The notes under the pieces are model-generated. The model was not told the origin of the DNA, did no database searches, and saw only the letters and a list, made by a program, of their open reading frames with translations. A DNA stretch of 38,475 nucleotides from Candidatus Endomicrobium neocapritermitis (GTDB taxonomy: Bacteria > Elusimicrobiota > Endomicrobiia > Endomicrobiales > Endomicrobiaceae). The translations under genes were made by a program, and so were the position numbers. Positions 1,168-25,314 of this stretch are shown here, one piece after another. Location of the stretch: the NCBI GenBank assembly GCA_009778325.1, contig WRJZ01000028.1:1-38475 (forward strand), written 5' to 3'. Position 1 is the stretch's first letter, and every line of letters begins with the position of its first letter.

Positions 1168-1189
1168 AAAATTTACTCCGTAAATTTTA

Positions 1190-2401: not shown

Positions 2402-2417
2402 TTTTATTCCCCCGTAT

Positions 2418-3797: not shown

Positions 3798-6700
3798 TTA
3801 CGCGGCCGCCAACAGAGGCTTAAGTTCTCTCACGTCAAACTGAGCTGCACTGTTATTGTCTACGTCTATATTTAATCTTTCTTTGGCTAGCGCAGGTATC
3901 AGTTCTATTATTGCGCTTAAAGCTATATTATCTTCCTTCTCAAAAGCGCTTTCCGCAAGGTCATTAATTGTTTTCTTCAAAGCTGCCTGCAAATCACCGG
4001 CGACTTGTTTTTCAAAAACTTCACCTTTCATTCTAGGATATTTACCGTGAGTTTTTTCTTTTTCATTTTTTCTAAAGATATCAGAAAAAGTATTGTGCCC
4101 GTCGTCAGCAACTCTATCTTTTTCGGGTAATAGCTGCATAAGCGTATTGACGTCGGCAACTCTCTCTTTTCCGTATAGCAGCTGCAGTCTAAGCGCCTGC
4201 CCCAGCTGTTTTTCCAAAGTTTTGTTTGCAATATCTCTGGTCTCGCCCATAGTTTTACAAACAAGCAGTTTTTCAAATATTCCTTCAAGATAAGCTTTTT
4301 GCAAAGCCGCAACTTCCGCTTTATCAGCTTTCTGCGAAATATCTCTTAAATATGTATTTACGGAATATACGGCAGGCAGAGAAGTTATAACAGCTTCAAC
4401 ATTGTTTGCCCGAAGAAGTTTAATAAGCCTTGCGATTTCCTGCTCGTCAATTTTTTCAAATGCCTTAAAATTGTCCCTTCTAAGATTATACGCGGAGTTT
4501 TTCACGGTATTTTCATTCTTCTCACCGATAATTCTGGCGTCAACCGGTTTAAGCAATTGCGAAATGCCTATTCTGTCCAATATCGATGATCTGGAACCGC
4601 CGTCAATTGTTTTGACAATTTCACTGTTATTAAAAATTTTTATATCTTTCGTTTCACGTAACGCACTAATAAGCTTTTCGGCGTCTAAATATCCTTCGGT
4701 TAAATATTCTTTTTCTTTGATGACAGAAGCATTTGTTTCGCTTGCCAGCGCGAAATCATGTATAGCAAGGCTTTCTTTAGATTCTTCTTTAGATTTATTG
4801 TACAGCACTCCGTCAAAACCTGCGCTTCTGTAATCATTCTTAGCAGCAGAATCAACGTTCCGGCTAATATCTCTATGGTCTGCTATTATTTTTATACCGC
4901 TTGCGCGCACCGCGCTGAAAAACTCTTTAATTTTGTCTTTGTCATCTCTGAATTTCTTTTTAATAGCATTATAAGCATCGTAAGAAAGGATTATCTGCCC
5001 GTTTCCTATTTTCTGGAAATTCTCCAGAACCTTGTATAATTTTTCAGCAGTCTTAACATCATCCAAAAAGTAATATATATTCTCAATCATGGCCATTGTA
5101 TCTGCATCTGCAATATCCCTGATTCCTGTCATAAAATCATCAATGGCGTCTTGATTACGCTGCGCATCCTCTGGAGTTAATTTGATCCTTACGATTCCAC
5201 CTTCATAATTAAACGAAGTTTCTTTAGCTTCAGCGTCTGTCTCAACATTAAACCATCTTACCGCAGACTTCGCGTCTACTCTCTTGCCGGTAGCTTTCTG
5301 CACAAGCCTTGAAAGTTCGCGCTGTACTTTTTGATTGTCTTGCACAGCGCTTTCTATTTCTTTTAAATCGGCATTTTCCGCAAAAATTATGATACGGTTT
5401 TCCGCAGAGCCCAGCCAAACGCTCTTTTCGTTTTTTTCTATTTTGACACCCATATTTTTGAATTTAAACGCGATTTTATCCGAAGGCATTTTGTTTGTCA
5501 TCAAAATCTCAACTATTGCCTCATCGCCTTTTTCTATTATCCCGCGCGCATTCATCTGCTCTGATGTAATTTCATTTTCCGTAAAACTATAATACACGCT
5601 TATCCTTTTAATTACATCTTTTCCGCGCGTACCCGCTGCTCTTCTTGCCGGCGGAAGCCCAAGTTTAGAGTCGGCTATTTCCGGCATTTTTCCTGAAACC
5701 ATATATATTCCCGAATTTTTCAGCATTCCAAAAAACGATTTATCGGATTTCTGCAGTTTCTGTTGCTGCGCATATGCTTTTTTCTCCAATTCGGCTTGTT
5801 CAGACGCTTTTAACACGGCTGTTTTTATTTGATTATCTCCGGAAGAATCCATGCCGAACACTTCAACATCAGTGTATTTATAATCTCCAAAACGATTTGC
5901 ATAACTGCTTCGGCTCGTCAACACCGCTTCATTATCATCCATATAATATCTCACGACTATGTCGTCTTTAATAATATCGCCTCTTGCGTTTACGGGATTT
6001 TCTATTAAATTATCTTCGATAATTTGCCTTACTACAGATTTTAATCCGTCAAGAGTCAAACCCGCGGTTCGGATTGTAAAATCGTTTAAAGGCATATCGG
6101 CAATTTTTGGCATATCGTTTTCATTGACAATAGAATCGAGCTTATTTATAATATCAATGCTCCGCAAGGAGCTGCTCCGGGCGGGAGTGGGCTTGGAATC
6201 AAGGTCACTTAACATACCCCGGAGCTTTTCTTTGTCCATTAATTCCATTGAATAAATTTTATGCCCTTCGGTTTCTTTCAAGGTTATATACGCATAACAG
6301 GTTTGTCCTGATATTTTTAAAGGTGATACAAAGCGTTTTATAGAATCTATACCGCTTTTTTTATCTCTGTCAGGCCTTGTTTCCGCAAGAACAGCCTGTT
6401 TAAATAATTTATCTATCACGGACACGGCGGCATAATGAGCTTCTCTTGTAAAACCGTTTTCCTTGCTCTTTTCTACGGCGGCATTGCTGACAAGCTTATT
6501 TCTTTGATTTGTAGCCACTGTCGCCTCGATACCAGTCTCGCCGTTTACCAACTTTTTGTTGAACATATTTTTCTCAATGGCTTTCTCGGCTTCTGTCTTG
6601 GTTTTTACCGCGATTGTCTCGACAAATCCCCACCGTTTAATCGACTCCGGCAAAGCGGTTTGCGATAATTTTTCCAAAAATTCGTCCGCGGCATTCTTCA

Positions 6701-9700
6701 TAGAAAGCGCCGGAAAATCGCGCCTGTTATTAATATTCAATTGCGCTATTTCCCCGTCAGTCATCCGCCTTTGCGCAACAGCGTAGCTCGGATGCGCAAA
6801 AAGTGGGCTTGCCGCTGCATCCGTCAAATCAGAAAACGCCAAAGAAAAAAACATAGCCGCAGTTACAACCGCAGTCATAATTATTGATTTGGGAGTTTTA
6901 GCTCCAGTTTTAGTTTCGGAAAAGTCGAGTTTCGCATTTTGCCCTGTAACAGGTGCAGATGTTTTAAAGTCACCTAAAAACATTTTATTTTTTTCAAAAA
7001 AGCCATCAATATCTTTTAAGCCTTCTCTGCGGAAATTCCAAAGTTTCATATCTTTTTTTATACGGTTAAACTTATTTTCTGCTTCTGCCGGCTCATAATT
7101 GTCTGATTCGCAAAAGCTATTATATTCATTTATCAATGTTTCAATTTCATCTTTGACGCCTCTGTCCAAAAAAAGAATTTTGAAGATCCGTGCCGCTTGA
7201 GAACTTTTTCTTTCCGGAACTACTTCCGAAACTCTAAGCGCTTCATTTCCTTCATAGTATGTTTGTTGGCTTATAGAAATGTGTATCAACTTTGATCCGA
7301 CGTAGAAAAATATATTGCCTATCCATGCTTTTTTGTTAACTTCAAAAACTATATCTTTTTTAAAATTTCCATCACGCATCAGCTTAACGGTTTCGCTAAT
7401 CTGCATTTTTTCTCTTGCTAAACCTCTTATGGGGAAATCTGATTTTTTGCCTGATGCCGCTAACGACGCCGCAGATTCAAAATCGTGGGAAATATAATTG
7501 AGCGCATTTTCAATATATGCCTGTATGGTGCCGGTGCCGACAGCATATGCACGCTCGGATTCGACAGTTTCGTCGCCTAACTGAGCCAGAGCAAATTGTT
7601 GCATTTGCCGTTCCCGCAGAGCAGCCGGAACAAACACTATATTGTCGCCTTCAATTTCGAGTTTAGGATTTTTCAAAATATAAACAACATTTTTAACAAC
7701 TTCCATCCTGTCGGCATAACCGAAATCTTTTTTGAAAATTATGCCGTAAAAACCAACAATATCTTTCTGCTTGCCATTATCGTGGATTTTTATATTAGAA
7801 GTATTTTGCAATTGGAATTGTCTGTCAAATATTACATTCATCACATAGCTCAACATAACAGGGCGGCCGTCTATAGTTGTAATTTCTATGTCTTTCTTTT
7901 CATCATCAAAGTCCTCTTCCGCAAATATTCCTGCGTCAACCAATATTCTTTTCAGCTGTTCCCATCCGCTATAGGTTTGTATATGCCACAAAAATTTGCC
8001 GTCTCTTCCCTGTACAAGTTGATCGATATATATTTGAATTTGCCGAAATAAGTTATTTTCCGGAATAAGTAAACGGTTTATCGCTGAGGGATTGTTTTGA
8101 AAATATTTCAACATCGGCATAAAAGATCGATGATCCACAGATTGACTAGCCTGACGGCTTTCGACATCAAGCGGCAACCCGGGGTTTACTTCTTGCTCTA
8201 TAACAGATGCAGACGTAAAGTTACTTAAAAAATTTTTATTTTTTTCAAAAAAATCATTTATGCCGGAGTCTAATTCTTTTATGCCTTCTCTGCGGGAATT
8301 CCAAAGTTCCATATCTTTTTTTATGCGGTTAAACTTATTTTCTGCTGCTGCCGGCTCATAATCGTCTGATTCGCAAAAGCTATTATATTTGCTTATCAAT
8401 ATTTCAATTTCATTTTTGACACCGCTGCCCAGAAAAAGGGTATTGAAAACCTGTGCGGCTTTTTCAGCTCTTAGTACGTTTGATATATCAAACATACTTA
8501 CTGTTGCAGCTCTTAATACTTTACTTCCTTCATAATACATCTCTTTATTTGTGTCTATAAGAATATATGCTAAAGCTGGTCCGGCATAAAAAAATATCTC
8601 GCCTATCCCGGTATTTTTGTTAACTTCAAAAACCGTACCTTTTTTTAAATTTTCATACCGCATCAGCTTAATGGTTTCGTTAAGCTGCGCTTTTTTTCTC
8701 AAAAAACCTCTTACAGGAATTCCTGATTTTCTGCCTGTCACACGCACAAGTTCAATATCGTGCGACACATAATGGAGCGCATTTTCAATATATGCCTGTA
8801 TAGTGCCGGTGTCGATAGCATATGCCCGCTCGGATTCAACAGCTTCGCCGCCTAACTGAGCCAAAGCAAAGGTTTGCAGTTGCCGTTCCCGCAGAGAAGC
8901 CGGAACAAACGCTATACTTTCACCTTCAACTTCGAGTTTGGGGTTTTTCAAAATATCAACAACATCTTTCACTACTTCCAGCCTGTCGGCATAACCGGGG
9001 TCTTTTTTGAAAATTATGCCGTAAAAATCAACAATATTCTCATACTTCCCGTTATCGGAGACTTTTATATTGGAAATATTTTGCAATTGGAATTGTCTGT
9101 CAAATATTACATTCATCACGTAGCTCAACATAACAGGCCTTCCGTCTATAGTTGTAATTTCTACGTCTTTATTTTCATTATCAAAGTCTCCTTCTTTAAA
9201 TAATCCGGCGTCAACCAATGTTTTTTTCAGTTTTTCCCAGCCATCATTAGTTCGCATATACTCCAAAAATTTGCCGTCTGTTTTTGATTTAATCTGAACG
9301 ATATATTCTTGAATTTGCTGCTGTAGCTCTTCATAATCTTTTCCTTGAATAAAAAATTTATCTATTTTGGAAGGAGTTCTTTTCAAATCTTCCAGCATAG
9401 GTATGAAAGATTGATGAGGAAGAGAGTGAGGAAGTTGGTCGCTTTCATCGCTTCCAAGCTCAAGCTTTGCCCATGATTTTGTAACATTATGATAAGCATG
9501 TCTTGCCATGTTGAAAATAAAAGTTGTTCCGGCAACAGCCATAACGGCCGCAAATACCGAAGTTCCGGCAAAAAACATTATCAGCCCTAAGACAGAACCG
9601 GCTGAAAATCCGTTAAGCGTAGCTTTTTTTATTGCTTCCGCTCCTTTTAATCTCTCCCGATAAATATACCCATACTTGTTTGGATTGTTTATGCCCTTAG

Positions 9701-12700
9701 AGTTATAATGCATGTCAACAAATCGTTTTGCCGAAAAAATAACATTTGGCAGAAATTCCACAGCCCCCACTAAAAGACCTCTAAACCACCCGTCTTTTTT
9801 AAGCCCCAGAAAATCCATAAAACGCTCAACCCTCGGAAACTCGAGCCGCGCGTCTTCTGTTTGCGGCGGCAATTCCCAAATAGCTTCAGCATTTTCATCA
9901 CCAACATTATTTTCTGCTATTCTTGTTATTTCCCTTGATCCGTCTGCGTTTATTTCTATCAATATATCTGCGCGTTGGCCTATATGCGGCTTGAGCTTTT
10001 CATCGCCTTCTCTTGTTATACCGTCAAAATATACAAAGCCGTTTTTTCTGTTTTGTCTCACTTTTACTCCGGAAACTATGTATATTCCCGGTTTTTTAAG
10101 CATATTGCTTACTTCTTCGATTACTTTTGACGGCACTCTTCCCGTCGGAATCCGGTATGCCAACGATCTTGTTGTTTGTTTATTTTCATTTAACTCATAT
10201 ATTCGTATCATTTCCCCGCTTTCTTCCCAGAGAATATCAGCAGGACCTGCTTTTTCCACATCTTTTTCGGCTGCTCTTGTTATCTTCTTTGTTCCGTCTT
10301 TGCCTACCTCTATCAATATCTCCGCGGGTTTGCCCGCGTAATGCGACAGATTTGTTATTATCCGCATGTTGGCAAAAGATATAACGCCGCCTTCCCCAAC
10401 TTTTATGTCGGAAACTTTGTATATCCCCTGATTTTCAATCTCTTTTTCACTTGACGGCGATAATATCCCTCTTGATTCCAGCTTCCAAACAGCCGGAGAT
10501 TTTTCTTTTGCTTCCGATTGAACAATATTATCTGATTTCAAATCCCAAATGGCCTGAGAATTTTCATCCTCAACATTATTTTCGGCTATTCTTATTACGC
10601 TTTTTGCAATATCTCCGTTTTCCTTTCTGCTTACTTCTATCAATACCTCTACGCGTTGGCCTAAAAACGGCTTCAATTTCCCGCTTTCTCTTCTTATGTC
10701 GTCATATTCTACCGCCGCCGCGCCGTCTCCGATGCTGACCACTGTTAATCCGGAAATTTTGTATATTCCCTCCCGGCTGTTGAGCATATTGATTGCTTCA
10801 TCTTTTACTTTTTTTGCTTTTGACGGCAATCTTCCTTTTGAAGCCGTGTATTCTTTCACATCTGCTATTGTATTGTTTTCACCTAACCTGTATATTCTTA
10901 TCTTCTCACTGCTTTCTTTCCAGATAATTTTGCCGCTTTCTTCCGATATCTTTATTATTTTTCGCGTAATACCTTCTATAAATATATTTACGTTTTTGCC
11001 TATGTACTCTGACAGCGCTGCTATTGTTCTATGCTTTCCGCCGTATATTACTCTGCCTGCTACGATTTGACCTTCCGCGTCTGAGATTGCTATCACTCTT
11101 TTTAGAATTTTGTATATTCCCGGTTTTTCCGATATCTCGCTTCTGCTTGACGGCAGCAACTTTCCTGATTCCGACTTCTTCCAAATATGCTTTGACATTA
11201 ACTGTGAAGTATAAGAGTTCACTTGTAGTTTGCATTTGTATGCTCCGGCTATGAAAGCTGAAATAATATCAATAGGTGAAGCTGGTGTTATTGTTTCATC
11301 TTGCAGGGGTGAACCGTAATTTATCCGGTGACCTTTTTTTACAAAACCCGTTACCGGCCTTATTTGCAGGATGTGGATTGTGTTGTCCGAGCTTATTGCC
11401 CACTCTATGTCAACCGGATAACCTGTTTCTTTTTCCAACTCGGAATATATCTCGTTTAATATTACAGCTTCCGTTTCGCTTAACACGCGCGCGCCAAGTT
11501 CGCGTTTCGGCAAAGATTCTTCTTTTGTGCCGCCTTTTTCGTACGGCGTTATTTTTCCGCTTCGCCCATGCGCCTTTACATACTCTATCTTGCCGCCTAT
11601 AACTTGCGCTTTGTCCGAAGGAAATCTTCCGGACACCAAACCTTCGCCAAGCCCGAATACCGCTCCCGTCACTCCGTTAATCGTTGCGCCGGATTTGTCC
11701 ACTTCATCCGCCATGTTCTGCACTAATACCGCAGGCATCACCGCGCTTATTCCTCTATCTATAGCGTATCCTATGATTTTAGCGCTGAAAAATGACTCCC
11801 ATACTTTTAATACATTTTCTACAACTTCATCTTTGTTTACATTTAAATAACTTGCTCCCATTCCCGCATATGAATTTTCCGCGCCGTCTTCTCCTATTCC
11901 TGACGAACGCACTGCCAGCAAGTTCTGACTTTCCGACAATGTTTTGATTATCGATGATTTCAGCGATTCATTATCCGCTTTTCCTATCAGTTCTTGTATC
12001 CTTGTTCCGGCAGTCTTTACTGCAACCGCATCTTTCTTTTTGATTGCCTCCATAAATTGCTCAAATTCGCTTCCCGCGAATTCTTTAAATATGCCAAATC
12101 CTAAAGCTATACCGTCCGGAGCCGATATTTCTACTTTAAAGCCTTTCTTTTTAAGCGTTTTTTGTAAATTAGCGGCCGTCCTTAATAAAAATCCTGCTCC
12201 AATATTTTTTTCTCCGTACTCCGGCGCGTCTTTTGCTCTTAACTCTTTTATAGCTATTATTCCTGTCTTCGGAGAAAGCTGTTTCTGCTGCGTATTTATT
12301 TCATTAAATAACTCTTCGGCAGCTTTTCCTAATTCCTCATTTCCGTAATAATTTTCCCAATATTTTGCTTCTTTTATTATTTTCAATCCGGATTCAATGT
12401 CTTTTTCGGTAAATTTCTTCTTTTCGATTTTTTCGATTAAACCTCTTATTTCCGCTATTCTTATTTCGCCCAATTCCCTTACTGCCGCTTCTGCCTTTTG
12501 CAGCGCTGCGTCTATTTCGCTGTTTGTTATTCCTCTTTCTCTCAAATTTAGCGCTAATGTGTATTTCTTGAGAGGATTGTTTTCATTTTCTATCTCTCTA
12601 AGCCGTTCTTCTATATATTTTTCATCTGTTATTTGCGTTTTTTGTTCTCTTTTACCTATAACTATCTCGCCGGTCTCTCCGTCTATTTCTATTTCCTGCA

Positions 12701-15700
12701 CTTCTTTTATAATTACTTTTTCTTCTTGGGCCGCAATCACTTCATACCCATTACTTAACTTAATTTTTTTACCTGTCTTTACATAACTTAATGCCAGCAT
12801 GCCGTTTTCCCATTTGCCGGACATTATTATTCCCGCTTTCTTCTTTTCATTTAAAGCTATAGCGGAATGCATTACTTCGCTTCCGCGCATTGCTATTACT
12901 CCTTCGCTGTCCTCTCTCACCGCATCATCCGGGGTAAATTCTTCTCTTACCAATATCTTCCCTTTGGATTTTTCTATATCGTACGTTGCTTGCGCTCTTT
13001 TATTTTCTCCTTTTGCAAAAACTCTCCCTTTAAATATCATAGGTTTATCATTGTCGTCTGTTTGCGCTTCTTTATTCATTTCTTCTATAATGCCTGCCGC
13101 CTGCGCATTCAGTTCCGAATTTAATTTATAGCCTTTAGACATCTTTTCCGATATCGAGTAGCCCTCTTTTTCCAATAACTCTTTTAGCTCCGCGTATTCT
13201 ATATCTCTCCTTGCTCCGTTAGATGTCACTATCTCGGCATACGCCGCTTCTATTTTTCTTTCTCCTCTTTTAGTCATTGCTTTTACGGACAGCATATCTC
13301 CGTTTTGCAGTTTCAGCCACCCGCTTTTTATTTCCGTATTGCCTATTACGTTTTCCGTTCTGAAAAACAAATGCTCATACGGTAAATTGTCTATCGCATG
13401 CCCCTGCAGAATCAAACTTCTTGGCAATTTTTTATTTTCTCCGTCGAATACTTCAGTGAATTTAACGTATGAATTGTAGTCCCCGTTTAATTTGTAATCC
13501 GCATACGCGCGGCCTTCGGCTATGTATCTGTCTATTTCTTCGGGAGCGCGCATATCTTCGGGGATTTTCAATTTTTCATAAGTAGGCTCATAAAATTCAC
13601 GTCCTGCTTGGATTTGGGCGTCAATTTGCGTCAATTGCGGAGAAGATTTCATTTTTTCTATATATTCTTTTGTGCTGTCAGAAAGTAATTCATAAATTCT
13701 ATCATCTTGAAAATGTTGCGTCTTAATTATATGATGAGCTTCCTTGCGTGCCGCACTTTGATCCTTCGGCATCTCACGTAAGAGTGCGGTTTCTTCCGTT
13801 ATGTCCATAACTCTTGTAAAAAGAAAGAATTTCTCCGCGCATTCGCTTGCCGCATTCTGCGCGCTTTTGACGTTATATCTTACTTGAAATCCTCCCGGAG
13901 CGCTATAATCCGATATGTTGAATCCGTTATCTTTGAAAATCATGCTTAATGTTAAAGTCCTGATACCTCTTTCGTAGGACGGATCATAAAAATTTGCTAT
14001 TATTGCCTCGTCCTCTGAATCTAAATCTATCACGATATCAGCGCTATGACGGTCTCCAATCTCCACGCTGCAAATTATTGTATTTCCCAAAACGTAGAGC
14101 GTGTTAAATCTCTTTATACTGCCTAAACTTGTTAAACTTGATATGAATTCTTCCGCTTTAGGGCTCATTTTTTCTTCGGAACAATTTACAACTTGTACCT
14201 CGCCGGCACCCGGACAGATATAGATGTAATCAATTTTTTCATCAAACTTTCCCGGCATAGTTTTCAAATTTTTAAATTTTCTTATTCCCGTTTGATGCAC
14301 CGCGTTTATCAATGTGTGTATATCGTCTATTTCATCAAGCCGTTTTTCATCCAATTTATTTGGGATTGTACGCTTTTCTATATTTTTATTACTTTTCCAA
14401 TCCGCTTGTATTTTTTTATATGACTCCATCGCTTTTTGCGAAGCTTGCAAATCTATTGCCTCTAACCCGTTCTCTATCATCTTTTTAAGATGATTCAAAG
14501 CGCCCTCCATATCGCCCCTGATATACGCGGACATCGCCGCCCTGTTTGAAGACATCAATTCTTTATACCTGGAAAATCTTTTTGACAGCCATTTTTTGCT
14601 TTGCGAATTATCATTTTGGAACTCAAGAACTTTAATCGTCCTGCCGAAATTAACTAACGACACGCTATTTTCAGGCATTTTTCCTTTCAATGCGTCATCG
14701 GCAGGCTTTTCGGCGTTATCTGCTGTCTCCGCTTTCAGAGAAAGAGCTAAATCGTTCATATCTTCTATTTCTTCCGGTGAAGAGTTTCTAATTTTTGGAA
14801 CAAAATCTGCTACAGCAAATTTATTGCCGTCTTGAAATTCGAAAGAAGATTCGTTATATTCGTTATTTGAAAGAGAAATTTTAATTTTACTTGCTTCAAT
14901 TTCACTATTCAATAAATAGGCTTGACTCGCAAAAACAGCTTCTTCGCTTCTGCGATTAAGTTCGCCCTCCTGAACTTTATTAACGACTGCCGTTTTGTTA
15001 TTATTTGCAATATCAACAAATAAGTAAATAGGCGCATCTCTTTTAAAGCGGTTGCCGTAAGCAAAAGTATTTTTTAAAACTTCACGGATAGAACTCTCAT
15101 AATCATTTCTGAGTTTTGAATCTATATGCTCGGGATAAAGCCATTCGGCAAACTTCGTGGAAAAACTGGATAGGTCAACATATATTCTTTCGTAATGATT
15201 TTTATTAAGCGATTCATTTTCAAGCAATTTAAAAGTAAGCGACAGCATTTTTCCTTGCCTTACGGCTTCAATAGCCTCTTGCGCGTTATACGCTATATGT
15301 GAAATGTCAAACGCGGCTATACCTTTAGCTTTAAGATTTTTCGCAAGAGCCAAGCCGTTTTCATCTTTAACTTCAGAAGCTTTTAGTTTTTCCCGTTTTT
15401 CACGTCTTTCTCTCTTTTTCAACAGAATTTTTGCCAACGCCGCTTCATCATACCCCAAAGCTGAATACGAAGCCCAGAAAATTCTTGCGGCTCCGGTTAC
15501 TCCGTCTTCGCTGTCTATAAGTTTATTCGTTTTATGCGCTTCAAGCAGCGCGTTCTGAATGTGAATGTACTCATCGGACATTCTGCTGATCAGTTCTTGT
15601 TCCACGCCGTCAATAGGCTCGGAACTAGGGAAGTTTGTCTCAATATCAAAAATCAGCCCGTCGCCGGTTACCATATTATTTTTAGCGGCGAATTCCATTA

Positions 15701-17633
15701 CATTTTTTACTATTTTGTAAACGCGCGGGTTAAAAATGAAGTCGTACAGCAAAGCCGCGTTTGCGGCGGCACCGGCAGATACTGCCGCCGCGGAAGGAAA
15801 ATTTATTTTATTTGGCTCAACGGATTTTCCAACATTTTCGGTTAAAACTTCTACATTTCCGGATTTGTTTTTTTTAAGGGTTATTTTAAATTCATTGGAG
15901 AGTGTTAGTGTTACGGATGTCCGATCTCCGGAATAATCGGATTCAATCTCTTTTCCTAATGCTTCACTTATGCCCTTACTAATAAAAGAAATGTTTTGCT
16001 CATTATACTCGAGAGACGAAAGCGATGTTACGGCAGCATCTATCATCATCCGCGCTATTTCCGCGGGCGGCGCCTGCGAAGCAAGCGCCAAAGCCAAAGT
16101 CTGCGATGAAAAGAGCACCCCCCCCCCTCTATTTATCATCGACAAGAAAGAATTATAATTTTCTTCGGCAGTTTTTGTTTCCTGCGTGACCGAAGGCATA
16201 ATGCTTATATAAGAGACGCCGGTCTTGTTAAATATTTTATTTAAACCTTCGCTGTGGAAACCGCCCGTCACGGCTATTACGATTTCATTTTTCGCGTTTT
16301 TATCAAGTCTTTTCTCTATATTCTTCACGAATATCGCGTTTCTGTCTTTATTGATTTTGTAATATTCCATAAGAAATTTTATATCTTCTGACATTGAGCT
16401 TAACGTATTCTTAAAAGCGTATTTTGAATATATTTTCTCAAATCTCGGATACTCTTTTTCAAAAAATTCATAATCGGCAGCAGTTATCTTCGTATTAAAA
16501 AAAGATTCAAGGTACGCGTAAAAATCGCTCAGGAAAGAAATTTCTATTTCTTCCGGCGTGCTTGAAAACGCTATTCTTATGTCTTCCGCTATTCTTCTTT
16601 CTTCGTCAAGCATGGCGACAATGTTGATTTTCCTGCTCGCTTCTATATAAGAGATAAGATGCCCGAGACTGCTTCCGGCGTCTATGTTTATGCCGTGCTT
16701 TTTTGCAAGTTCCGGCATGCGCAGTCCGAGCTCTTCGACATTTGAAAAACCTGCCGTCGCAAGAGACAGTTTACTGTATTCGTTATAAGAAAGATTGTCT
16801 TTAAGGTAATTGACAAGAACCTGCATTTCATAAGAAGCTTTTTTGTAATCTATTTTTCTCGAGGTTTTAATGAGTTCGCAGTATGCCGTAAAAATAGGAT
16901 ACTTTTCAGAAGATATCGGCAGGAGAGAATTATATTTGGCGTCATTATTATCTAATTTTTCTATGTATTTTCTCAGAAGAGCGTAATATCTCTCCGCAGG
17001 CATTTTGCCCTGCCTGTAATTTTCAAAAGTCGCGGTAAATTTATGATTTTCACGGCTAAAATATTTTGCTTTGAGATATTCTATTTCGGATTTTATCTCT
17101 GAAAGTTTTTCTTGATACCGTTCATTATTATCCAGGGCTTTTGAAAGCCTTTCAAGGTTTTGATGATGAATTTCCTTGTCTTCCAAACCGTAAAAAGGCG
17201 TTTTCACGTCGTTTTTAAGATAATAATATTCCGCGCCCGTAAGCCTTCCTTTTTCAAATAATCCTTCAATAATATTATTTCTGAGTTTTTCGTCTTTCAC
17301 CCGGCCGAATATGCCGGTATCCACTTTATCATAGCCGCCTTCAACAAAAATCGCCGAAATTTCATAGCTTTTCTGCAAATTTCCGATTATCTGTTCAATA
17401 TTTTTATGCACTTCCGCGTGGCAGTGCAAATCCTGTATGTTTATTACGGTATAGCGGCTGTTTTCAAATGTCTTTGATTCTATTACCCTTCCAAGGTGAA
17501 ACGGGATAAAGCTTAGCGTATTTTCAACGGCATTGTTATTATCTCCGCTTGTTATAACGGCATGGGCGACATCCGTCCCGATGACGGAAATCATAAAGCT
17601 CAAAGCGGTAAAAAGTGAGATTAGTTTACGCAT
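3798..17633 (-). CDS. Giant exported mosaic protein (4611 aa), function unknown
   Basis: A signal peptide (about 1-26, cleavage after AHA) indicates export. Residues about 60-490 contain DLHCHAEVH (68-76), FVEGG (96-100) and GGFH ending at 460, resembling TraB/ChaN/EreA-type domains. A run of ten G follows at codons 502-506. About 840-865 (IREVLKNTFAYGN) faintly resembles a GHKL ATPase N-box. About 1545-1620 resembles a PEP-utiliser phosphohistidine domain (MHSAIA, candidate H1589). A helical linker leads to a PEP-synthase-type ATP-grasp domain (about 1795-2097; AVRSSGIGEDG, GLGEGLVSG, LQIRPVTG). Then come four A-B-A-B repeats (about 2147-2590), membrane segments (about 2615-2710), a tandem duplication (about 2740-3135 and 3167-3556), a second hydrophobic signal-like segment (about 3578-3610) and an unrecognised C-terminal part. 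The ATG has AGGG 9 nt upstream. Function is unknown. Adhesin, surface or envelope roles are possible; the enzymatic domains may be degenerate. Confidence 0.85.
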   Translation of the reverse strand: MRKLISLFTALSFMISVIGTDVAHAVITSGDNNNAVENTLSFIPFHLGRVIESKTFENSRYTVINIQDLHCHAEVHKNIEQIIGNLQKSYEISAIFVEGGYDKVDTGIFGRVKDEKLRNNIIEGLFEKGRLTGAEYYYLKNDVKTPFYGLEDKEIHHQNLERLSKALDNNERYQEKLSEIKSEIEYLKAKYFSRENHKFTATFENYRQGKMPAERYYALLRKYIEKLDNNDAKYNSLLPISSEKYPIFTAYCELIKTSRKIDYKKASYEMQVLVNYLKDNLSYNEYSKLSLATAGFSNVEELGLRMPELAKKHGINIDAGSSLGHLISYIEASRKINIVAMLDEERRIAEDIRIAFSSTPEEIEISFLSDFYAYLESFFNTKITAADYEFFEKEYPRFEKIYSKYAFKNTLSSMSEDIKFLMEYYKINKDRNAIFVKNIEKRLDKNAKNEIVIAVTGGFHSEGLNKIFNKTGVSYISIMPSVTQETKTAEENYNSFLSMINRGGGVLFSSQTLALALASQAPPAEIARMMIDAAVTSLSSLEYNEQNISFISKGISEALGKEIESDYSGDRTSVTLTLSNEFKITLKKNKSGNVEVLTENVGKSVEPNKINFPSAAAVSAGAAANAALLYDFIFNPRVYKIVKNVMEFAAKNNMVTGDGLIFDIETNFPSSEPIDGVEQELISRMSDEYIHIQNALLEAHKTNKLIDSEDGVTGAARIFWASYSALGYDEAALAKILLKKRERREKREKLKASEVKDENGLALAKNLKAKGIAAFDISHIAYNAQEAIEAVRQGKMLSLTFKLLENESLNKNHYERIYVDLSSFSTKFAEWLYPEHIDSKLRNDYESSIREVLKNTFAYGNRFKRDAPIYLFVDIANNNKTAVVNKVQEGELNRRSEEAVFASQAYLLNSEIEASKIKISLSNNEYNESSFEFQDGNKFAVADFVPKIRNSSPEEIEDMNDLALSLKAETADNAEKPADDALKGKMPENSVSLVNFGRTIKVLEFQNDNSQSKKWLSKRFSRYKELMSSNRAAMSAYIRGDMEGALNHLKKMIENGLEAIDLQASQKAMESYKKIQADWKSNKNIEKRTIPNKLDEKRLDEIDDIHTLINAVHQTGIRKFKNLKTMPGKFDEKIDYIYICPGAGEVQVVNCSEEKMSPKAEEFISSLTSLGSIKRFNTLYVLGNTIICSVEIGDRHSADIVIDLDSEDEAIIANFYDPSYERGIRTLTLSMIFKDNGFNISDYSAPGGFQVRYNVKSAQNAASECAEKFFLFTRVMDITEETALLREMPKDQSAARKEAHHIIKTQHFQDDRIYELLSDSTKEYIEKMKSSPQLTQIDAQIQAGREFYEPTYEKLKIPEDMRAPEEIDRYIAEGRAYADYKLNGDYNSYVKFTEVFDGENKKLPRSLILQGHAIDNLPYEHLFFRTENVIGNTEIKSGWLKLQNGDMLSVKAMTKRGERKIEAAYAEIVTSNGARRDIEYAELKELLEKEGYSISEKMSKGYKLNSELNAQAAGIIEEMNKEAQTDDNDKPMIFKGRVFAKGENKRAQATYDIEKSKGKILVREEFTPDDAVREDSEGVIAMRGSEVMHSAIALNEKKKAGIIMSGKWENGMLALSYVKTGKKIKLSNGYEVIAAQEEKVIIKEVQEIEIDGETGEIVIGKREQKTQITDEKYIEERLREIENENNPLKKYTLALNLRERGITNSEIDAALQKAEAAVRELGEIRIAEIRGLIEKIEKKKFTEKDIESGLKIIKEAKYWENYYGNEELGKAAEELFNEINTQQKQLSPKTGIIAIKELRAKDAPEYGEKNIGAGFLLRTAANLQKTLKKKGFKVEISAPDGIALGFGIFKEFAGSEFEQFMEAIKKKDAVAVKTAGTRIQELIGKADNESLKSSIIKTLSESQNLLAVRSSGIGEDGAENSYAGMGASYLNVNKDEVVENVLKVWESFFSAKIIGYAIDRGISAVMPAVLVQNMADEVDKSGATINGVTGAVFGLGEGLVSGRFPSDKAQVIGGKIEYVKAHGRSGKITPYEKGGTKEESLPKRELGARVLSETEAVILNEIYSELEKETGYPVDIEWAISSDNTIHILQIRPVTGFVKKGHRINYGSPLQDETITPASPIDIISAFIAGAYKCKLQVNSYTSQLMSKHIWKKSESGKLLPSSRSEISEKPGIYKILKRVIAISDAEGQIVAGRVIYGGKHRTIAALSEYIGKNVNIFIEGITRKIIKISEESGKIIWKESSEKIRIYRLGENNTIADVKEYTASKGRLPSKAKKVKDEAINMLNSREGIYKISGLTVVSIGDGAAAVEYDDIRRESGKLKPFLGQRVEVLIEVSRKENGDIAKSVIRIAENNVEDENSQAIWDLKSDNIVQSEAKEKSPAVWKLESRGILSPSSEKEIENQGIYKVSDIKVGEGGVISFANMRIITNLSHYAGKPAEILIEVGKDGTKKITRAAEKDVEKAGPADILWEESGEMIRIYELNENKQTTRSLAYRIPTGRVPSKVIEEVSNMLKKPGIYIVSGVKVRQNRKNGFVYFDGITREGDEKLKPHIGQRADILIEINADGSREITRIAENNVGDENAEAIWELPPQTEDARLEFPRVERFMDFLGLKKDGWFRGLLVGAVEFLPNVIFSAKRFVDMHYNSKGINNPNKYGYIYRERLKGAEAIKKATLNGFSAGSVLGLIMFFAGTSVFAAVMAVAGTTFIFNMARHAYHNVTKSWAKLELGSDESDQLPHSLPHQSFIPMLEDLKRTPSKIDKFFIQGKDYEELQQQIQEYIVQIKSKTDGKFLEYMRTNDGWEKLKKTLVDAGLFKEGDFDNENKDVEITTIDGRPVMLSYVMNVIFDRQFQLQNISNIKVSDNGKYENIVDFYGIIFKKDPGYADRLEVVKDVVDILKNPKLEVEGESIAFVPASLRERQLQTFALAQLGGEAVESERAYAIDTGTIQAYIENALHYVSHDIELVRVTGRKSGIPVRGFLRKKAQLNETIKLMRYENLKKGTVFEVNKNTGIGEIFFYAGPALAYILIDTNKEMYYEGSKVLRAATVSMFDISNVLRAEKAAQVFNTLFLGSGVKNEIEILISKYNSFCESDDYEPAAAENKFNRIKKDMELWNSRREGIKELDSGINDFFEKNKNFLSNFTSASVIEQEVNPGLPLDVESRQASQSVDHRSFMPMLKYFQNNPSAINRLLIPENNLFRQIQIYIDQLVQGRDGKFLWHIQTYSGWEQLKRILVDAGIFAEEDFDDEKKDIEITTIDGRPVMLSYVMNVIFDRQFQLQNTSNIKIHDNGKQKDIVGFYGIIFKKDFGYADRMEVVKNVVYILKNPKLEIEGDNIVFVPAALRERQMQQFALAQLGDETVESERAYAVGTGTIQAYIENALNYISHDFESAASLAASGKKSDFPIRGLAREKMQISETVKLMRDGNFKKDIVFEVNKKAWIGNIFFYVGSKLIHISISQQTYYEGNEALRVSEVVPERKSSQAARIFKILFLDRGVKDEIETLINEYNSFCESDNYEPAEAENKFNRIKKDMKLWNFRREGLKDIDGFFEKNKMFLGDFKTSAPVTGQNAKLDFSETKTGAKTPKSIIMTAVVTAAMFFSLAFSDLTDAAASPLFAHPSYAVAQRRMTDGEIAQLNINNRRDFPALSMKNAADEFLEKLSQTALPESIKRWGFVETIAVKTKTEAEKAIEKNMFNKKLVNGETGIEATVATNQRNKLVSNAAVEKSKENGFTREAHYAAVSVIDKLFKQAVLAETRPDRDKKSGIDSIKRFVSPLKISGQTCYAYITLKETEGHKIYSMELMDKEKLRGMLSDLDSKPTPARSSSLRSIDIINKLDSIVNENDMPKIADMPLNDFTIRTAGLTLDGLKSVVRQIIEDNLIENPVNARGDIIKDDIVVRYYMDDNEAVLTSRSSYANRFGDYKYTDVEVFGMDSSGDNQIKTAVLKASEQAELEKKAYAQQQKLQKSDKSFFGMLKNSGIYMVSGKMPEIADSKLGLPPARRAAGTRGKDVIKRISVYYSFTENEITSEQMNARGIIEKGDEAIVEILMTNKMPSDKIAFKFKNMGVKIEKNEKSVWLGSAENRIIIFAENADLKEIESAVQDNQKVQRELSRLVQKATGKRVDAKSAVRWFNVETDAEAKETSFNYEGGIVRIKLTPEDAQRNQDAIDDFMTGIRDIADADTMAMIENIYYFLDDVKTAEKLYKVLENFQKIGNGQIILSYDAYNAIKKKFRDDKDKIKEFFSAVRASGIKIIADHRDISRNVDSAAKNDYRSAGFDGVLYNKSKEESKESLAIHDFALASETNASVIKEKEYLTEGYLDAEKLISALRETKDIKIFNNSEIVKTIDGGSRSSILDRIGISQLLKPVDARIIGEKNENTVKNSAYNLRRDNFKAFEKIDEQEIARLIKLLRANNVEAVITSLPAVYSVNTYLRDISQKADKAEVAALQKAYLEGIFEKLLVCKTMGETRDIANKTLEKQLGQALRLQLLYGKERVADVNTLMQLLPEKDRVADDGHNTFSDIFRKNEKEKTHGKYPRMKGEVFEKQVAGDLQAALKKTINDLAESAFEKEDNIALSAIIELIPALAKERLNIDVDNNSAAQFDVRELKPLLAAA
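6969..9415 (-). repeat. Tandem duplication of about 425 codons inside the giant gene
   Basis: The protein copy encoded at about 8219-9415 and the copy at about 6969-8134 share order and many identical stretches, such as EITTIDGRPVMLSYVMNVIF and YAxxTGTIQAYIENAL. The spacing is 425 codons (1275 bp). At DNA level 7807-7895 and 9082-9170 are almost identical, pointing to recent duplication or gene conversion. Confidence 0.9.
9866..11195 (-). repeat. Four protein repeats in A-B-A-B order inside the giant gene
   Basis: Each unit has a GIYK(I/V) strand, a G-rich turn and a segment like (Y/L)xGxxxxILIEV, often followed by an ITRIAE-like strand and an IW(E/D/K) motif. Units 1 and 3 share IWEES-GEMIRIYEL-type ends. 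Units 2 and 4 share LKPxxGQR and RIAENNV-DENxxAIW. The pattern suggests duplication of an A-B pair. A lone fragment (MLKNSGIYMVSGK, near 5710) recurs far downstream. Confidence 0.75.
16118..16127 (-). repeat. Poly-G(10) tract inside the giant gene coding sequence
   Basis: Ten consecutive C on the plus strand read as ten G in the coding strand at codons 503-506 (Gly-Gly-Gly-Val). Loss of one G leads to a TAG stop about 24 codons on. Gain of one G leads to a TAA about 45 codons on. The tract lies just after the N-terminal domain. Confidence 0.95.
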
Positions 17634-17649: not shown

Positions 17650-17683
17650 AGAAATCCGGCTTGAGGGAAATTTCCTCAAGCCG
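17650..17683 (-). terminator. Intrinsic terminator between the small secreted gene and the giant gene
   Basis: On the minus strand CGGCTTGAGG (17683-17674) pairs with CCTCAAGCCG (17666-17657) and is followed by GATTTCTTTTT. The stem starts a few bases after the stop of the 163-aa gene. The giant gene starts only about 20 nt after the stem, and no promoter fits in between. Confidence 0.75.
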
Positions 17684-17687
17684 AATT

Positions 17688-18179
17688 CTAAATTAATACA
17701 TCGCCAATAACAAAAACATCCACGGGAACGCTTCCTTTTTGAAGCGCCTCAATTGACAGTAAATACTGTTTGGTTATTTCCGGGTCATCGCCAAAAGGGC
17801 TGCCTCGCATTCGGTCGCTCACAAAACCCGTAAAGCATATAAAATCTTTTCCGAAATGAACGCTTTTTTTATTACTGAGAGTTATTGTTTTAACTGCACA
17901 CAGAGCAATTTCGTCGGTTTTGGAATTGTATGACGGAAGTTTATTATTTCCGGCATCTTTAACGTACATATTGAAAAAGAAATCTTTTGTTCCGCCATAA
18001 TACTTTCTGACAATTTTATCGGAAATATCCAAAAGGCTTACGGCTTTAGCGGTTTTCGATGAAATTTCAGCGGATTTTGCACCGGCAAAATAAAGACCAG
18101 CCTCCGCAAAGCACGCCTGCGGAACTGATAATGAAAATAAAAAGAAAGAAATAATAACTGCTGCTATTTTCTTTTTCAT
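17688..18179 (-). CDS. Small secreted protein of unknown function
   Basis: The 163-residue protein begins with a clear signal peptide: basic MKKK, a hydrophobic core to about residue 20, and a likely cleavage after CFA near 25. The mature part of about 138 residues has no motif I recognise. It includes two cysteines (in ALCAVK and FICFTGF) that could form a disulfide after export, and a C-terminal VDVFVIGDVLI strand. It lies just upstream of and parallel to the giant exported gene, separated by a terminator-like hairpin, so the two may be expressed together through partial readthrough. The ATG at 18177-18179 has no strong Shine-Dalgarno sequence. A weak TTTACA/TACATA promoter can be drawn in the AT-rich DNA upstream. 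Confidence 0.75.
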   Translation of the reverse strand: MKKKIAAVIISFFLFSLSVPQACFAEAGLYFAGAKSAEISSKTAKAVSLLDISDKIVRKYYGGTKDFFFNMYVKDAGNNKLPSYNSKTDEIALCAVKTITLSNKKSVHFGKDFICFTGFVSDRMRGSPFGDDPEITKQYLLSIEALQKGSVPVDVFVIGDVLI

Positions 18180-20157: not shown

Positions 20158-21246
20158 TCATTTAAGTTTTTTAACTTTCCAATAGGTATAAGCCGGTTTT
20201 GAAAAATCCAATTCTTCGGACGCGCCTGCTTCGGGAGCGTCAAAGAGCGACGCCTGCCCGAGTTCTTTTTTTACCGGAGCATCGCTTTTAAACCCGGTCG
20301 CTATTATGGTGATTTTAATTTTATCGTCAAGCCTGTTGTCTATTGCGTGGCCGTAATATATGTGCCCTTTCATGTCGTAACTTTTTATTACATCGCCTAT
20401 GTCTTTGAGCTTCAAAGCCGAAACATTCGCGTTTGTCGTTACGTTTATAAGCATCTTTTCGGCTTGGGAAATATCATAATTGTCGAGAAGAGGGCTTGAA
20501 ACCGCTTTTGCGATTGCTTCTTTGACATTGTCGCTGCTCGCGCTTTCGCCTATTCCTATCAGAGCCGTTCCTGAATTTGCGACTATGGTTCTGACGTCGG
20601 CAAAATCCATATTAATTTCGCCGGGCGTTGTTATCACGTCGGTTATAGCCTGCACGCTCTGCCTTAAAACGTCGTCGATAATCTGATACAAAGCTTTTGC
20701 CGACATTCTTTCGTCAACGACGTTAAATACTCTTTCATTCGGAATTATTATGAGCGTATCGGTATAATTTCGCAGATTGCCGATACCTTCCTCGGCCTGC
20801 GACATTCTGACCTGTCCTTCAAACCCAAACGGTTTTGTTACGACCCCTATAGTCAAAATGCCTTCCGATTTTGCTATCTGCGCGACAACGGGCGCCGCGC
20901 CCGTGCCCGTGCCTCCGCCCATTCCGGCGGTGACAAAAACCATATCCGCGCCTTTAATCGTTTCGCGTATGATGTCCATGCTTTCTTCGGCGGCCTTTTG
21001 CCCGATCGCCGGATTTCCTCCGACGCCAAGCCCTTTGGAAATTCTTTCGCCAATCTGCAGCCGCACCGGAGCCGCGGACTCTCTCAAAACCTGCACGTCC
21101 GTATTTATGGCGATAAACTCGACGCCGCTCACGTTAGCGGCTATCATTCTGTTAACTGCGTTTGAACCGCCGCCGCCTACGCCGATAACTTTTATTACCG
21201 CAGGCTGACCATTGCTTGAATTTTCAACAGGCAATATTATCTTCAT
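20158..21246 (-). CDS. ftsZ: Cell division protein FtsZ
   Basis: A tubulin-like GTPase that forms the division ring. The 362 residues carry VIGVGGGGSNAV (about 21-31), the tubulin signature GGGTGTG at 110-116, NERVFNVVDERMS near 170 and the T7 catalytic loop NMDFADVRT at 212-220. The linker after the globular domain is very short (roughly 30 residues). The tail LDFSKPAYTYWKVKK is a variant of the usual conserved C-terminal peptide (D-I-P-x-[FY]-L-R), the FtsA-binding site. I chose ATG at 21244-21246, one base after the ftsA stop, with GAGGAAA upstream inside ftsA. A TTG 18 nt earlier (21264) is the alternative. It is the seventh gene of queF-murC-murB-ddl-ftsQ-ftsA-ftsZ. Confidence 0.97.
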   Translation of the reverse strand: MKIILPVENSSNGQPAVIKVIGVGGGGSNAVNRMIAANVSGVEFIAINTDVQVLRESAAPVRLQIGERISKGLGVGGNPAIGQKAAEESMDIIRETIKGADMVFVTAGMGGGTGTGAAPVVAQIAKSEGILTIGVVTKPFGFEGQVRMSQAEEGIGNLRNYTDTLIIIPNERVFNVVDERMSAKALYQIIDDVLRQSVQAITDVITTPGEINMDFADVRTIVANSGTALIGIGESASSDNVKEAIAKAVSSPLLDNYDISQAEKMLINVTTNANVSALKLKDIGDVIKSYDMKGHIYYGHAIDNRLDDKIKITIIATGFKSDAPVKKELGQASLFDAPEAGASEELDFSKPAYTYWKVKKLK

Positions 21247-21247
21247 T

Positions 21248-22489
21248 TTAAAAAGTTTCCTCAAACCATTTGCTTACTTTGGAAAAAAATCCGTTTCCGG
21301 AAGATTTCGGAGAATATACGGAGTAAGTGCTGCCCATAGTCGAAGCGACCGCTCCGATTGCGGTTGTATAAACCGGATTTAAAACTATTTCATGCGGGCC
21401 TACAACTTTCTCGGAATTCGGCACGCCGATTCTTACGGAACATCCGAAATATTTTTCAAAAGCTTCGGTCATGCCTTCAAGCTGGCAGCCGCCGCCGGTC
21501 AAAATAATTCCTCCCGACAAAAACTGCGAACCGTAAGAACTTTTTTTCATCATATCTTCTATAACAAACAGCATCTGTTCCACTCTCGGCTGTATTATTT
21601 CCACCAAATTCTTTCTTTCGTATTTTTTTACGCTTCTTCCGTCAGCCGCCCTGTATTCGAATTCCGAATTTTTTAAATTAGGATGCGCAAAAGCCGCTCC
21701 GTACATTTCTTTAACTTCTTTCGATACGGAAAAAGAAGCCCTGAGCTTATGCATGATGTCCCGCGTTATATAATCCGCGCCGACCTGCGCTTCTCCGGTA
21801 TGCCTTATTATCCCGTCGGCATAATGCACAAGCCCTGTTGTCAGCCCGCCCAAATCAACGACAAGACATCCGAGCTCCTTTTCTTCTTTTGTTACAAGAA
21901 TATCGCTTGCCGCCAAATAGCCGTAAACTTTTTCATCACAGCTTATGTCGACTGAATTCATAGCCTTTATTATGTTGCCGATATTGCTGCTGACGGCTAC
22001 CAGAGCGTGCACGTCAACTTCTATAAAAGTGCCTTCCATCCCTATGGGGTTTTGTATTCCGCGCTGCTGGTTTAAAATAAATTCCCTCGGAATTATCTGC
22101 AAAATTTCATGTTCCGGGTCGAGTTTAATCATTTTTCTCGCGCTGTCTAAAGCGTTTACGACGGTCTCCTCGGTAATTTCCCTGTTTGAGTGCGTAATAT
22201 TCGCCACTCCTTTGGAGTTTTTCGCTTCAATAAAACTGCCTCTTATCGCGACAATGACATTGCCTATATGGCTTCCCGCGGCCTTTTCAGTTTCTTCAAA
22301 AGCTCTTGCCATTGCCATTGCTGCTTCCTGTATGTTTATTACGGCCCCGGCTTTTATACCGTCGCTGCACGGAACGCACGCGCAGCCCAAAATTTTGACA
22401 AGCCTCGCGTCTTCGTCCCTGGCTCCCGCAACGCAGCAAACCTGATTGCTTCCGATATCAAGCCCTGCTATAAGCTCTTGTTTTGGCAT
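21248..22489 (-). CDS. ftsA: Cell division protein FtsA
   Basis: An actin-like ATPase that tethers FtsZ to the membrane and recruits later division proteins. The 413 residues show the phosphate-1 motif AGLDIGSNQVC near the N-terminus, phosphate-2 VVDLGGLTTG in the middle and the adenosine motif ILTGGGCQLEGM near 330. The C-terminus FFSKVSKWFEETF is a short amphipathic helix, the expected membrane-targeting sequence. The start is ATG at 22487-22489 with AAGGA about 8 nt upstream. It is one base from ftsZ, so the two are probably translationally coupled. Between ftsQ and ftsA is a palindromic element of about 120 bp, unusual inside a division operon. Confidence 0.95.
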   Translation of the reverse strand: MPKQELIAGLDIGSNQVCCVAGARDEDARLVKILGCACVPCSDGIKAGAVINIQEAAMAMARAFEETEKAAGSHIGNVIVAIRGSFIEAKNSKGVANITHSNREITEETVVNALDSARKMIKLDPEHEILQIIPREFILNQQRGIQNPIGMEGTFIEVDVHALVAVSSNIGNIIKAMNSVDISCDEKVYGYLAASDILVTKEEKELGCLVVDLGGLTTGLVHYADGIIRHTGEAQVGADYITRDIMHKLRASFSVSKEVKEMYGAAFAHPNLKNSEFEYRAADGRSVKKYERKNLVEIIQPRVEQMLFVIEDMMKKSSYGSQFLSGGIILTGGGCQLEGMTEAFEKYFGCSVRIGVPNSEKVVGPHEIVLNPVYTTAIGAVASTMGSTYSVYSPKSSGNGFFSKVSKWFEETF

Positions 22490-22504
22490 TATTCATTCCT
22501 TTTT

Positions 22505-22620
22505 GAGAAGTTTAGAGAGCTGGGATGTTGGGAAGCCGAGAGGAGCTGTGGTCGTTTCGTCTTTATCTTTTGCCGTTGTCTTTACTCAGCTTCCCAGCTT
22601 CCCGGCTTCTCAGCTTCAGC
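22505..22620. repeat. O8-class composite palindrome (ftsA-ftsQ gap)
   Basis: The left arm (22505-22546) carries GAGAGCTGGGAT and GGGAAGCCGAGAGGAG. The right arm (22586-22619) carries CAGCTTCCCAGCTTCCCGG. On the minus strand the core reads AAAGACAACGGCAAAAG, matching the core at 20094. The ftsQ stop codon TGA (22616-22618) is part of the right arm. Confidence 0.8.
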
Positions 22621-23434
22621 CGTTATTGTCGTTTCTTGGTTTTACGACCGCTTTTCCGAGTTCGTAAAAAGTCATATCTATGTACTCTATTTCTTTATGT
22701 TTATTAACCGCGTCAACGTAAATTTTCTTGAGCTTATCAAATTTGTGTTTCACGTATTCAGGCCTTTCATCGCCCCAAAAAATTACCGTTCCGTCATAAG
22801 TTTTAAAAACTATGTCTCCCGTTTTTGAAAATCTTATCTCGGCTATATTATCGAGAAAATCCTCGCACGCGGGCTTAAAAATTTTCAAAAACTTTAAAAT
22901 ATCGCTTCTTTCGCTTTCGGTTTTATACGCGATTACCGGAATTTTCATGCCGCTCATAAAACCGCGCAGAGGAAAAGGCTTATCTTCAAAATCCACGCCC
23001 ATTATTTCCCCGCCGGACATTACAAAAGCTTCCGGAGTCCTTTCATAAAGTTTTACGCGCACTTTCTGCCATCTTCTGTTAATTGAAATATTCATGAGCT
23101 CGGGCTTAACTTTCTTTATCTCTTCTTCGGCTTCGGATAAATTTATTTTCAGCAGATTATCGCCTATTTTAAAAGGCAGAAGCTCTCTTATTTCGGCTTT
23201 TGTGACATTTTTGCATCCGACAACGTCTATTTCTTTTACCATTATGCTTTCGGAAGCGTAAACATATCCGACAAGTTTTTTCGCGCCGATATAGATAAGC
23301 GCGCACAGAAAAGTTATCAGGCAAAGGTAAATAAAAAGTTTTCCGAACTTTCTTCCTTTTTTAGAAGAACGCCCGTGCCCATGGTTTAAGGCAACTCTTC
23401 TCTTGTATGTATACTTTTTTCTTTTAACAGGCAT
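22616..23434 (-). CDS. ftsQ: Cell division protein FtsQ/DivIB (POTRA domain)
   Basis: A single-pass inner-membrane division protein of 272 residues. It has a basic cytoplasmic N-terminus (MPVKRKKYTYKRR), one membrane helix (about 32-52), a POTRA domain (about 63-135: MVKEIDVVGCKNVTKAEI, then LYERTPEAFV) and a periplasmic beta domain. In the divisome FtsQ links the ring to septal peptidoglycan synthesis. Order and direction (ddl-ftsQ-ftsA-ftsZ) match the classical dcw cluster and support the call. The start at 23434 is 3 nt after the ddl stop. The last codons (AAC GAC AAT AAC GGC TGA) resemble the O8 core, and the stop lies in the repeat arm, so the C-terminal few residues are probably element-derived. 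Confidence 0.9.
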   Translation of the reverse strand: MPVKRKKYTYKRRVALNHGHGRSSKKGRKFGKLFIYLCLITFLCALIYIGAKKLVGYVYASESIMVKEIDVVGCKNVTKAEIRELLPFKIGDNLLKINLSEAEEEIKKVKPELMNISINRRWQKVRVKLYERTPEAFVMSGGEIMGVDFEDKPFPLRGFMSGMKIPVIAYKTESERSDILKFLKIFKPACEDFLDNIAEIRFSKTGDIVFKTYDGTVIFWGDERPEYVKHKFDKLKKIYVDAVNKHKEIEYIDMTFYELGKAVVKPRNDNNG

Positions 23435-23437
23435 TTT

Positions 23438-24352
23438 TTACAATGAACTCTCTATAATTTTTAAAACCAGCTCTTCAAAACTTATGCCGCAAGCCCTTGC
23501 CGCGTCCGGAAGAAGAGAAGTTTCCGTCATTCCGGGCACCGTATTATTTTCCAAAACCCAGACTTTTCCGTTTTGGTCGACTATCATATCAACCCTGCAC
23601 ACGGCGCGGCATTTAAGCGACTTATAAACTTTTTCGGCATTGTACTGGGCGTGATTATACGCATTTTTGCTTATTTTTGCCGGGATTATATGCTTTGAAC
23701 CGCCTTTTGCGTACTTTGATTTAAAATCATAAAACTTTCCCTTCGGCACGATTTCAATGACTGGCAGCGCTTCTCCGTCTAAAACGCCTATTGTGATTTC
23801 TTTGCCTTTAATAAACTGCTCGACGATAATCTCATCGCCGTATTTAAAAGCTTTTTTCGCGGCGGCCGCAAGCTCCGACGCTTTTTTAACTATCGATATT
23901 CCTATAGCCGACCCCTGGTCAACAGGTTTTACGACAACGGGATATTTTTTTATTTCCGGAATCATTTCAAATTTTTTTAAAACAAACCAATCAGGAGTTA
24001 ACACGCCCGCGCATTTAAAAAGATCTTTTGAAATGCTTTTATTCATCGAAGCCGAACTCGCAAAAACGCCGCAGCCCGTGTAAGGTATCCCCATAACTTC
24101 AAGCATGCCCTGTATTGTCCCGTCTTCGCCGATAGGGCCATGAAGGGCTATATACGCGATATCTATTTTTTCTTTTCTGATTTTTTCGGCGACATTTTTA
24201 TCAACGTCTATGGCGGTAACTTTAAGTTTGAGCTTTTTCATGGCGTTTATAACGGCTTTTCCGGATTTCAGCGAAATTTCTCTTTCGCTCGATGTTCCTC
24301 CGTATAAAACGCCTATTTTTTTATTTTTCAGTTTATCTGGAATTACAGTCAT
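23438..24352 (-). CDS. ddl: D-alanine--D-alanine ligase
   Basis: An ATP-grasp ligase that makes the D-Ala-D-Ala dipeptide of peptidoglycan in the cytoplasm. The 304 residues are typical. Motifs include VLYGGTSSEREISL near 15-28, ALHGPIGEDGTIQG near 68-81, VVKPVDQGSAIGIS near 140-153, EQFIKGKEITIGVL and, near the C-terminus, NNTVPGMTETSLLP for Mg/ATP and substrate binding. The residue before NTVPGMT is Asn where Leu is more common, a minor change. It lies between murB and ftsQ with 8 and 3 nt gaps, so it is co-transcribed with both. Confidence 0.96.
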   Translation of the reverse strand: MTVIPDKLKNKKIGVLYGGTSSEREISLKSGKAVINAMKKLKLKVTAIDVDKNVAEKIRKEKIDIAYIALHGPIGEDGTIQGMLEVMGIPYTGCGVFASSASMNKSISKDLFKCAGVLTPDWFVLKKFEMIPEIKKYPVVVKPVDQGSAIGISIVKKASELAAAAKKAFKYGDEIIVEQFIKGKEITIGVLDGEALPVIEIVPKGKFYDFKSKYAKGGSKHIIPAKISKNAYNHAQYNAEKVYKSLKCRAVCRVDMIVDQNGKVWVLENNTVPGMTETSLLPDAARACGISFEELVLKIIESSL

Positions 24353-24360
24353 GTTTTCCT

Positions 24361-25269: not shown

Positions 25270-25314
25270 TGTTTTTGTTAATGCTAAAGACAAATCACCA
25301 GCCTTTTTTCAAAA

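Follow-up and report, generated by a model that had tools for sequence, protein, structure and literature searches.

Why should a gene of 4611 codons, apparently coding for an exported protein, carry an unbroken run of ten Gs shortly after its beginning, at a point where a single lost or gained base would end the reading frame almost at once? The question is raised by a 38,475-nucleotide stretch (WRJZ01000028.1, here called the window) from Candidatus Endomicrobium neocapritermitis, an uncultured gut bacterium of the Endomicrobiaceae (Elusimicrobiota). The window is contig C28 of a 2.38-Mb draft genome in 54 contigs. The giant protein begins with what appears to be a signal peptide (MRKLISLFTALSFMISVIGTDVAHA); this, like the gene starts and the other signal peptides, was judged by eye. 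In the present work we argue that the G10 tract is probably a contingency locus, that is, a site of phase variation, and that similar tracts have arisen in several related giant genes of the same genome.

The tract reads as C10 on the forward strand of the window and as G10 on the coding strand, where it starts at nucleotide 1507 of the open reading frame (ORF). Its place, its length and its being in frame are as described in the initial annotation, which had also estimated truncated products of about 525-545 residues for a change of one G; we computed 525 residues with one G fewer and 543 with one more, compared with 4611 for the intact frame. A one-unit change thus truncates or restores the product, and the run exceeds the cut-off for poly-G phase-variable tracts taken from PMC6321876 (at least seven G/C in an ORF or promoter). 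The second-longest run of G or C in the window has a length of 5. In an AlphaFold2 model of residues 1-521 the mean predicted local distance difference test score (pLDDT) is 82.7 and falls below 50 from residue 504, which puts the tract where the folded N-terminal domain is predicted to end and agrees with the annotation's placing of the run right after that domain.

The giant gene does not stand alone. A scan of the genome's contigs with the single protein as query gave no match; a profile search returned 19 hits, which correspond to 17 family loci whose open frames total about 186 kb, or 7.8% of the genome. The longest open frames of family members (among them G000:C40, G004:C13, G026:C12 and G029:C28) extend to about 9000 codons here and to 11,000-12,000 in relatives. 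Among named relatives, those closest in the N-terminal domain are metagenome-assembled genomes of Endomicrobium, followed by rumen and other Endomicrobia, and all are Elusimicrobiota. Six of the 17 loci bear a tract: the window gene, C21, C30, C49 and two genes that are each split between two contigs (C19|C43 and C14|C26).

How unusual are such runs? As background we took 400 kb sampled from this genome (39.4% GC); the sample holds 549 G/C runs of length 4, 59 of length 5, five of length 6, one each of lengths 7 and 8, and none longer. Extrapolated to the whole genome, this gives an expectation of 0.05-0.28 runs of at least 9. The genome has 14 when counted by contig and 12 distinct ones once the two split genes are joined, an excess over chance that bears out the remark that a G10 run is rare in such DNA. 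Tract lengths peak at 9-10, and lengths 7-8 are nearly missing from the sample. Half of the 12 runs fall within the first 520 or so codons of family genes, a territory making up 1.1% of the genome (P=1.7e-9, treating runs as independent, as do the other enrichment values). Since the family was chosen because it contains the window tract, the fairer figure is the one that leaves this run out, P=5.6e-8; counting C30 and C19|C43 once gives P=7.5e-8. All six family tracts lie in the first 14% of the giant genes, which are up to about 9000 codons long (P=8e-6).

The positions of the tracts point to several separate origins. In the other five tract-bearing loci the run lies inside the N-terminal domain, at profile positions of about 235-245 (in two close paralogues), 401, 443 and 447-450; with position 518 this makes about five positions, and one of the six runs is C rather than G on the coding strand. 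At this place the window gene's orthologues in three further species of the genus lack any run and are shorter by about five residues. Family members in genomes G002 and G003 have one tract each, and none was found in the domain among 80 family members from other genomes, which rules out the tracts as a family-wide feature. Because the positions differ and the orthologues are without the run, we conclude that tracts were gained repeatedly in the family and within the genus. We did not find a tract position conserved between species: a C-tract in G002:C238 lies near the same profile position as that of C14/C26, the two genes are not orthologous, and the G001 orthologue of the former has no pure run. 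Nor does a tract mark a sharp recombination breakpoint, as a step in identity between C30 and C19/C43 dissolved into a gradual profile in 100-base windows. At the assembled length the reading frame runs on through the tract at every one of the six loci (chance 1/729), which argues that they are real coding sequence and that the full-length, or ON, state is the common one.

Tracts also occur outside the family. In the same genome one further run lies at the start of a frame for an FkbM-type methyltransferase; another directly precedes the start codon of hypA, and a third stands ahead of the start of a secreted LTXXQ-like protein. Genome G014, one contig of 1,588,979 bp, has the length published for the cultured Endomicrobium proavitum Rsa215 (sequenced by PacBio), and we take it to be that isolate. 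Its runs of at least 9 occur in surface-glycan genes, coding for a family-2 glycosyltransferase, an NAD-dependent epimerase and an FkbM methyltransferase, and in the genes of two paralogous proteins without an assignment; of these two, one is out of frame at the tract. Around ATATTCGGGGGGGGGTATAAATGTATCCC, the E. proavitum loci L310, L312 and L317 have a repeated stretch in common, with G runs from G9 to G13; it looks like an intergenic repeat, or a promoter, that contains a G tract. TA follows about half of the G runs of at least 9 that were sampled in the lineage, with 7 of 11 cases in this genome and 7 of 10 in E. proavitum, as against about 8% of G4 runs. A count across 77 genomes of the bacterial family gave 169 for GGGGGGGGGTA and 74 for its mirror.

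Could the runs be neutral or driven by mutation, the lineage having a tendency to grow tracts that persist wherever no gene is broken, with no selection for switching? The tracts of other Endomicrobiaceae genomes outside the giant family would fit such an account, the odd 3' TA flank hints at a sequence-specific origin, and six in-frame tracts out of six are what it would leave behind. However, a neutral process would not place half of the runs in 1.1% of the genome, nor would it restrict them to the first 14% of the giant genes, and the near absence of lengths 7-8 beside an excess of 9-10 is not what it predicts. We therefore regard this explanation as unlikely.

The assembly itself stops at some of the G runs. 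Contigs C4, C14, C19, C26 and C43 end exactly in G9, and C52 in G13. The unbroken paralogue C30 places C19 and C43 in one gene, and an orthologue (L302) that covers both C14 and C26 does the same for these, so that at both junctions, C19|C43 and C26|C14, there is G9 on each side. In a small de Bruijn simulation, reads of mixed lengths (for example G9 and G10) always made the left contig end and the right contig start with the shortest run, whereas a single length gave one spanning contig. The G9/G9 junctions at two sibling loci may thus be indirect evidence of mixed lengths in the sequenced population. Are these ends, and the runs altogether, an artefact of sequencing or assembly, arising from errors of base-calling in poly-G or from chimeric joins across G runs? 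That several contigs end in G runs could be read in this way. Against it, the sequences on either side of the window tract are collinear with three orthologues, which rules out a chimeric assembly at this site; all six frames are preserved, two paralogues have the tract at the same position, and such tracts are present in a finished PacBio genome of an Endomicrobiaceae isolate. We consider an artefact very improbable.

It is even less probable, in our view, that both products come from DNA of a single fixed length, through slippage in transcription or through ribosomal frameshifting at the tract. The assembled frame is ON and both neighbouring frames stop quickly, as would suit a short secreted product, but the tracts lie at different positions in the paralogues and mostly interrupt the folded domain, and contigs broken at G9 would be left unexplained. 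Efficient transcriptional slippage is, besides, best known on runs of A or T. The least credible possibility is a structural one, in which the run encodes a glycine (or proline) linker and its purity at the nucleotide level is incidental: the window tract does lie in a predicted disordered linker, but the orthologues have no glycine run there, other paralogues have it within the folded domain or in the form of poly-C, and GGG makes up 13% of the glycine codons of the giant gene, a minority, so that codon usage does not account for G10 either.

Phase variation by slippage, which the initial annotation had proposed for this tract, is thus supported by the recurrence of tracts in the family, their confinement to the 5' part of the genes, the kept frames, the broken contigs and the tracts of the isolate. 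The window tract itself stands apart from the fourth of these, having been assembled without a break, which suggests that one length dominates there. Several other observations also weigh against phase variation. All six family tracts are ON, although some OFF copies would be expected if the set drifted freely. Poly-G read errors, or stutter of the polymerase chain reaction, are another possible source of contigs that end in G runs, and a contig of another genome (G004:C24) that ends in about 130 impure Gs resembles such a read error. Homopolymer lengths from the PacBio RS are uncertain, and the identification of G014 with E. proavitum, based on identical length and a single contig, is tentative. 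Lastly, this genome and nearly all its relatives have MutS and MutL, which excludes a loss of mismatch repair as the cause and should lower slippage; its rates may accordingly be modest.

How would the switch work? What takes place in living cells, namely slippage, populations of mixed length, expression and some benefit, we infer from the pattern described above. DNA polymerase slipping in G10 would alter the tract by one G. At G10 the gene would be ON and the giant exported protein made, while at G9 or G11 it would be OFF, with a stop some 20-40 codons on and the remaining 4100 or so residues lost. In the window gene the OFF state might release the N-terminal domain alone; because the tract follows the predicted folded domain, this gene could alternate between the whole protein and a secreted fragment. 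In the other five members a slip would destroy the domain, and for the family in general a simple ON/OFF switch is the better reading. The window gene would then be a special case in releasing a secreted domain intact, and not an instance of a general design. If switches of the same type arose independently in several paralogues, cells of one population could differ in their combinations of ON and OFF genes.

The features of the giant gene are collected below.

Features of the giant gene and its surroundings in the window, with the basis of each assignment
Feature	Position	Strand	Basis or remark
Giant ORF, 4611 residues, apparent Sec signal peptide; one of 17 family loci	3798..17633	-	ORF translation; profile search; peptide by eye
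LPD3 large polyvalent protein-associated domain, residues 3678-3794	6252..6602	-	domain search
PPDK_N / PEP-synthase-type ATP-binding domain, residues 1821-2096	11346..12173	-	domain search
N-terminal family domain (about residues 47-500), then disordered linker starting at the tract	16070..17633	-	alignment and model
G10 homopolymer, putative slippage site	16118..16127	-	codons 503-506, in frame
Terminator-like hairpin and T run directly before the start codon of the giant gene	17652..17688	-	sequence

Near-invariant QDxH, EGG and GGxH motifs mark the N-terminal domain of the giant protein and its family and are reminiscent of the EreA/ChaN/TIKI group. A Foldseek search with the domain gave no significant relative (EreC 6xcs, prob 0.23, E 0.71; ChaN 2g5g, prob 0.09, E 4.1), and searching the PDB by profile brought no convincing match; as the fold matches to EreC and ChaN are weak, we do not claim membership of this group. 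In Pfam there is a short match to DUF1722 in the helical part of the domain, just above the cut-off with the domain alone and just below it with the whole protein. Further on, the protein does not contain a complete phosphoenolpyruvate (PEP) synthase or pyruvate phosphate dikinase: PPDK_N alone is significant, preceded by a PEP-utiliser domain below the threshold. In the second half a segment of several hundred residues appears duplicated, with GRPVMLSYVMNVIFDRQFQLQN present twice, and there are apparent membrane segments, both judged by eye. It is a guess that the protein is an enzyme or effector that faces outward and acts on hosts or neighbours. The hairpin ahead of the gene suggests control by attenuation or read-through, and a similar hairpin of altered sequence stands at the same place before the orthologues in three genomes of the genus. 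The neighbourhood is ordinary, with aromatic amino-acid genes (DAHP synthase, an aminotransferase and prephenate dehydratase) at 148-3619 of the window and, on the other side of the giant gene, ftsZ, ftsA, ftsQ and a mur ligase at 20158-26726.

The tracts resemble those of well-studied systems in several respects. In Campylobacter, where phase-variable surface-structure genes are standard, lengths also peak at 9-10, with 53% G9 and 26% G10 (PhasomeIt, PMC6321876). As there, G/C homopolymers are here far above chance, mostly 9-10 long, mostly within ORFs and in several cases on genes for surface structures. Unlike there, the bacterium belongs to the Elusimicrobiota, a single family of giant exported proteins holds half of the tracts, TA stands after many of them, the genome has both mutS and mutL, and switching is deduced from sequence. 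In Neisseria, poly-G loci reported as experimentally tested are hmbR (PMC3786947) and the porA promoter (PMC3639595); those loci share with ours a poly-G run in the ORF or close upstream and an exported product, and they differ from ours, which form a multi-copy family of about 1500-9000 codons recognised in genome data. In its great size the family is also like the giant or huge proteins predicted in uncultured bacteria, the subject of a report on Omnitrophota (PMC10066038) and of a survey (PMC11573180), and unlike them in having its own N-terminal domain, with just the short DUF1722 match, and in belonging to the Elusimicrobiota.

In the literature searched, no paper connects phase variation to Endomicrobium, or the term 'phase variable' to Elusimicrobi-, and the principal genome study of Endomicrobia from termite guts (PMC11257099) makes no mention of such a giant family under the terms searched. 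We raise tentatively, and with more doubt than confidence, the wider idea that Elusimicrobiota possess a phase-variable repertoire of giant exported proteins, expressed in combinations that differ from cell to cell, whose tracts arise with a preferred GGGGGGGGGTA end by something beyond ordinary slippage. If phase variation at these tracts is real, a random switch would act on a family of 17 giant exported proteins, the genes for which occupy about 8% of the genome. Gut symbionts of the Elusimicrobiota would then diversify their outward-facing proteins cell by cell, in parallel to Campylobacter and Neisseria, which do so with smaller proteins.

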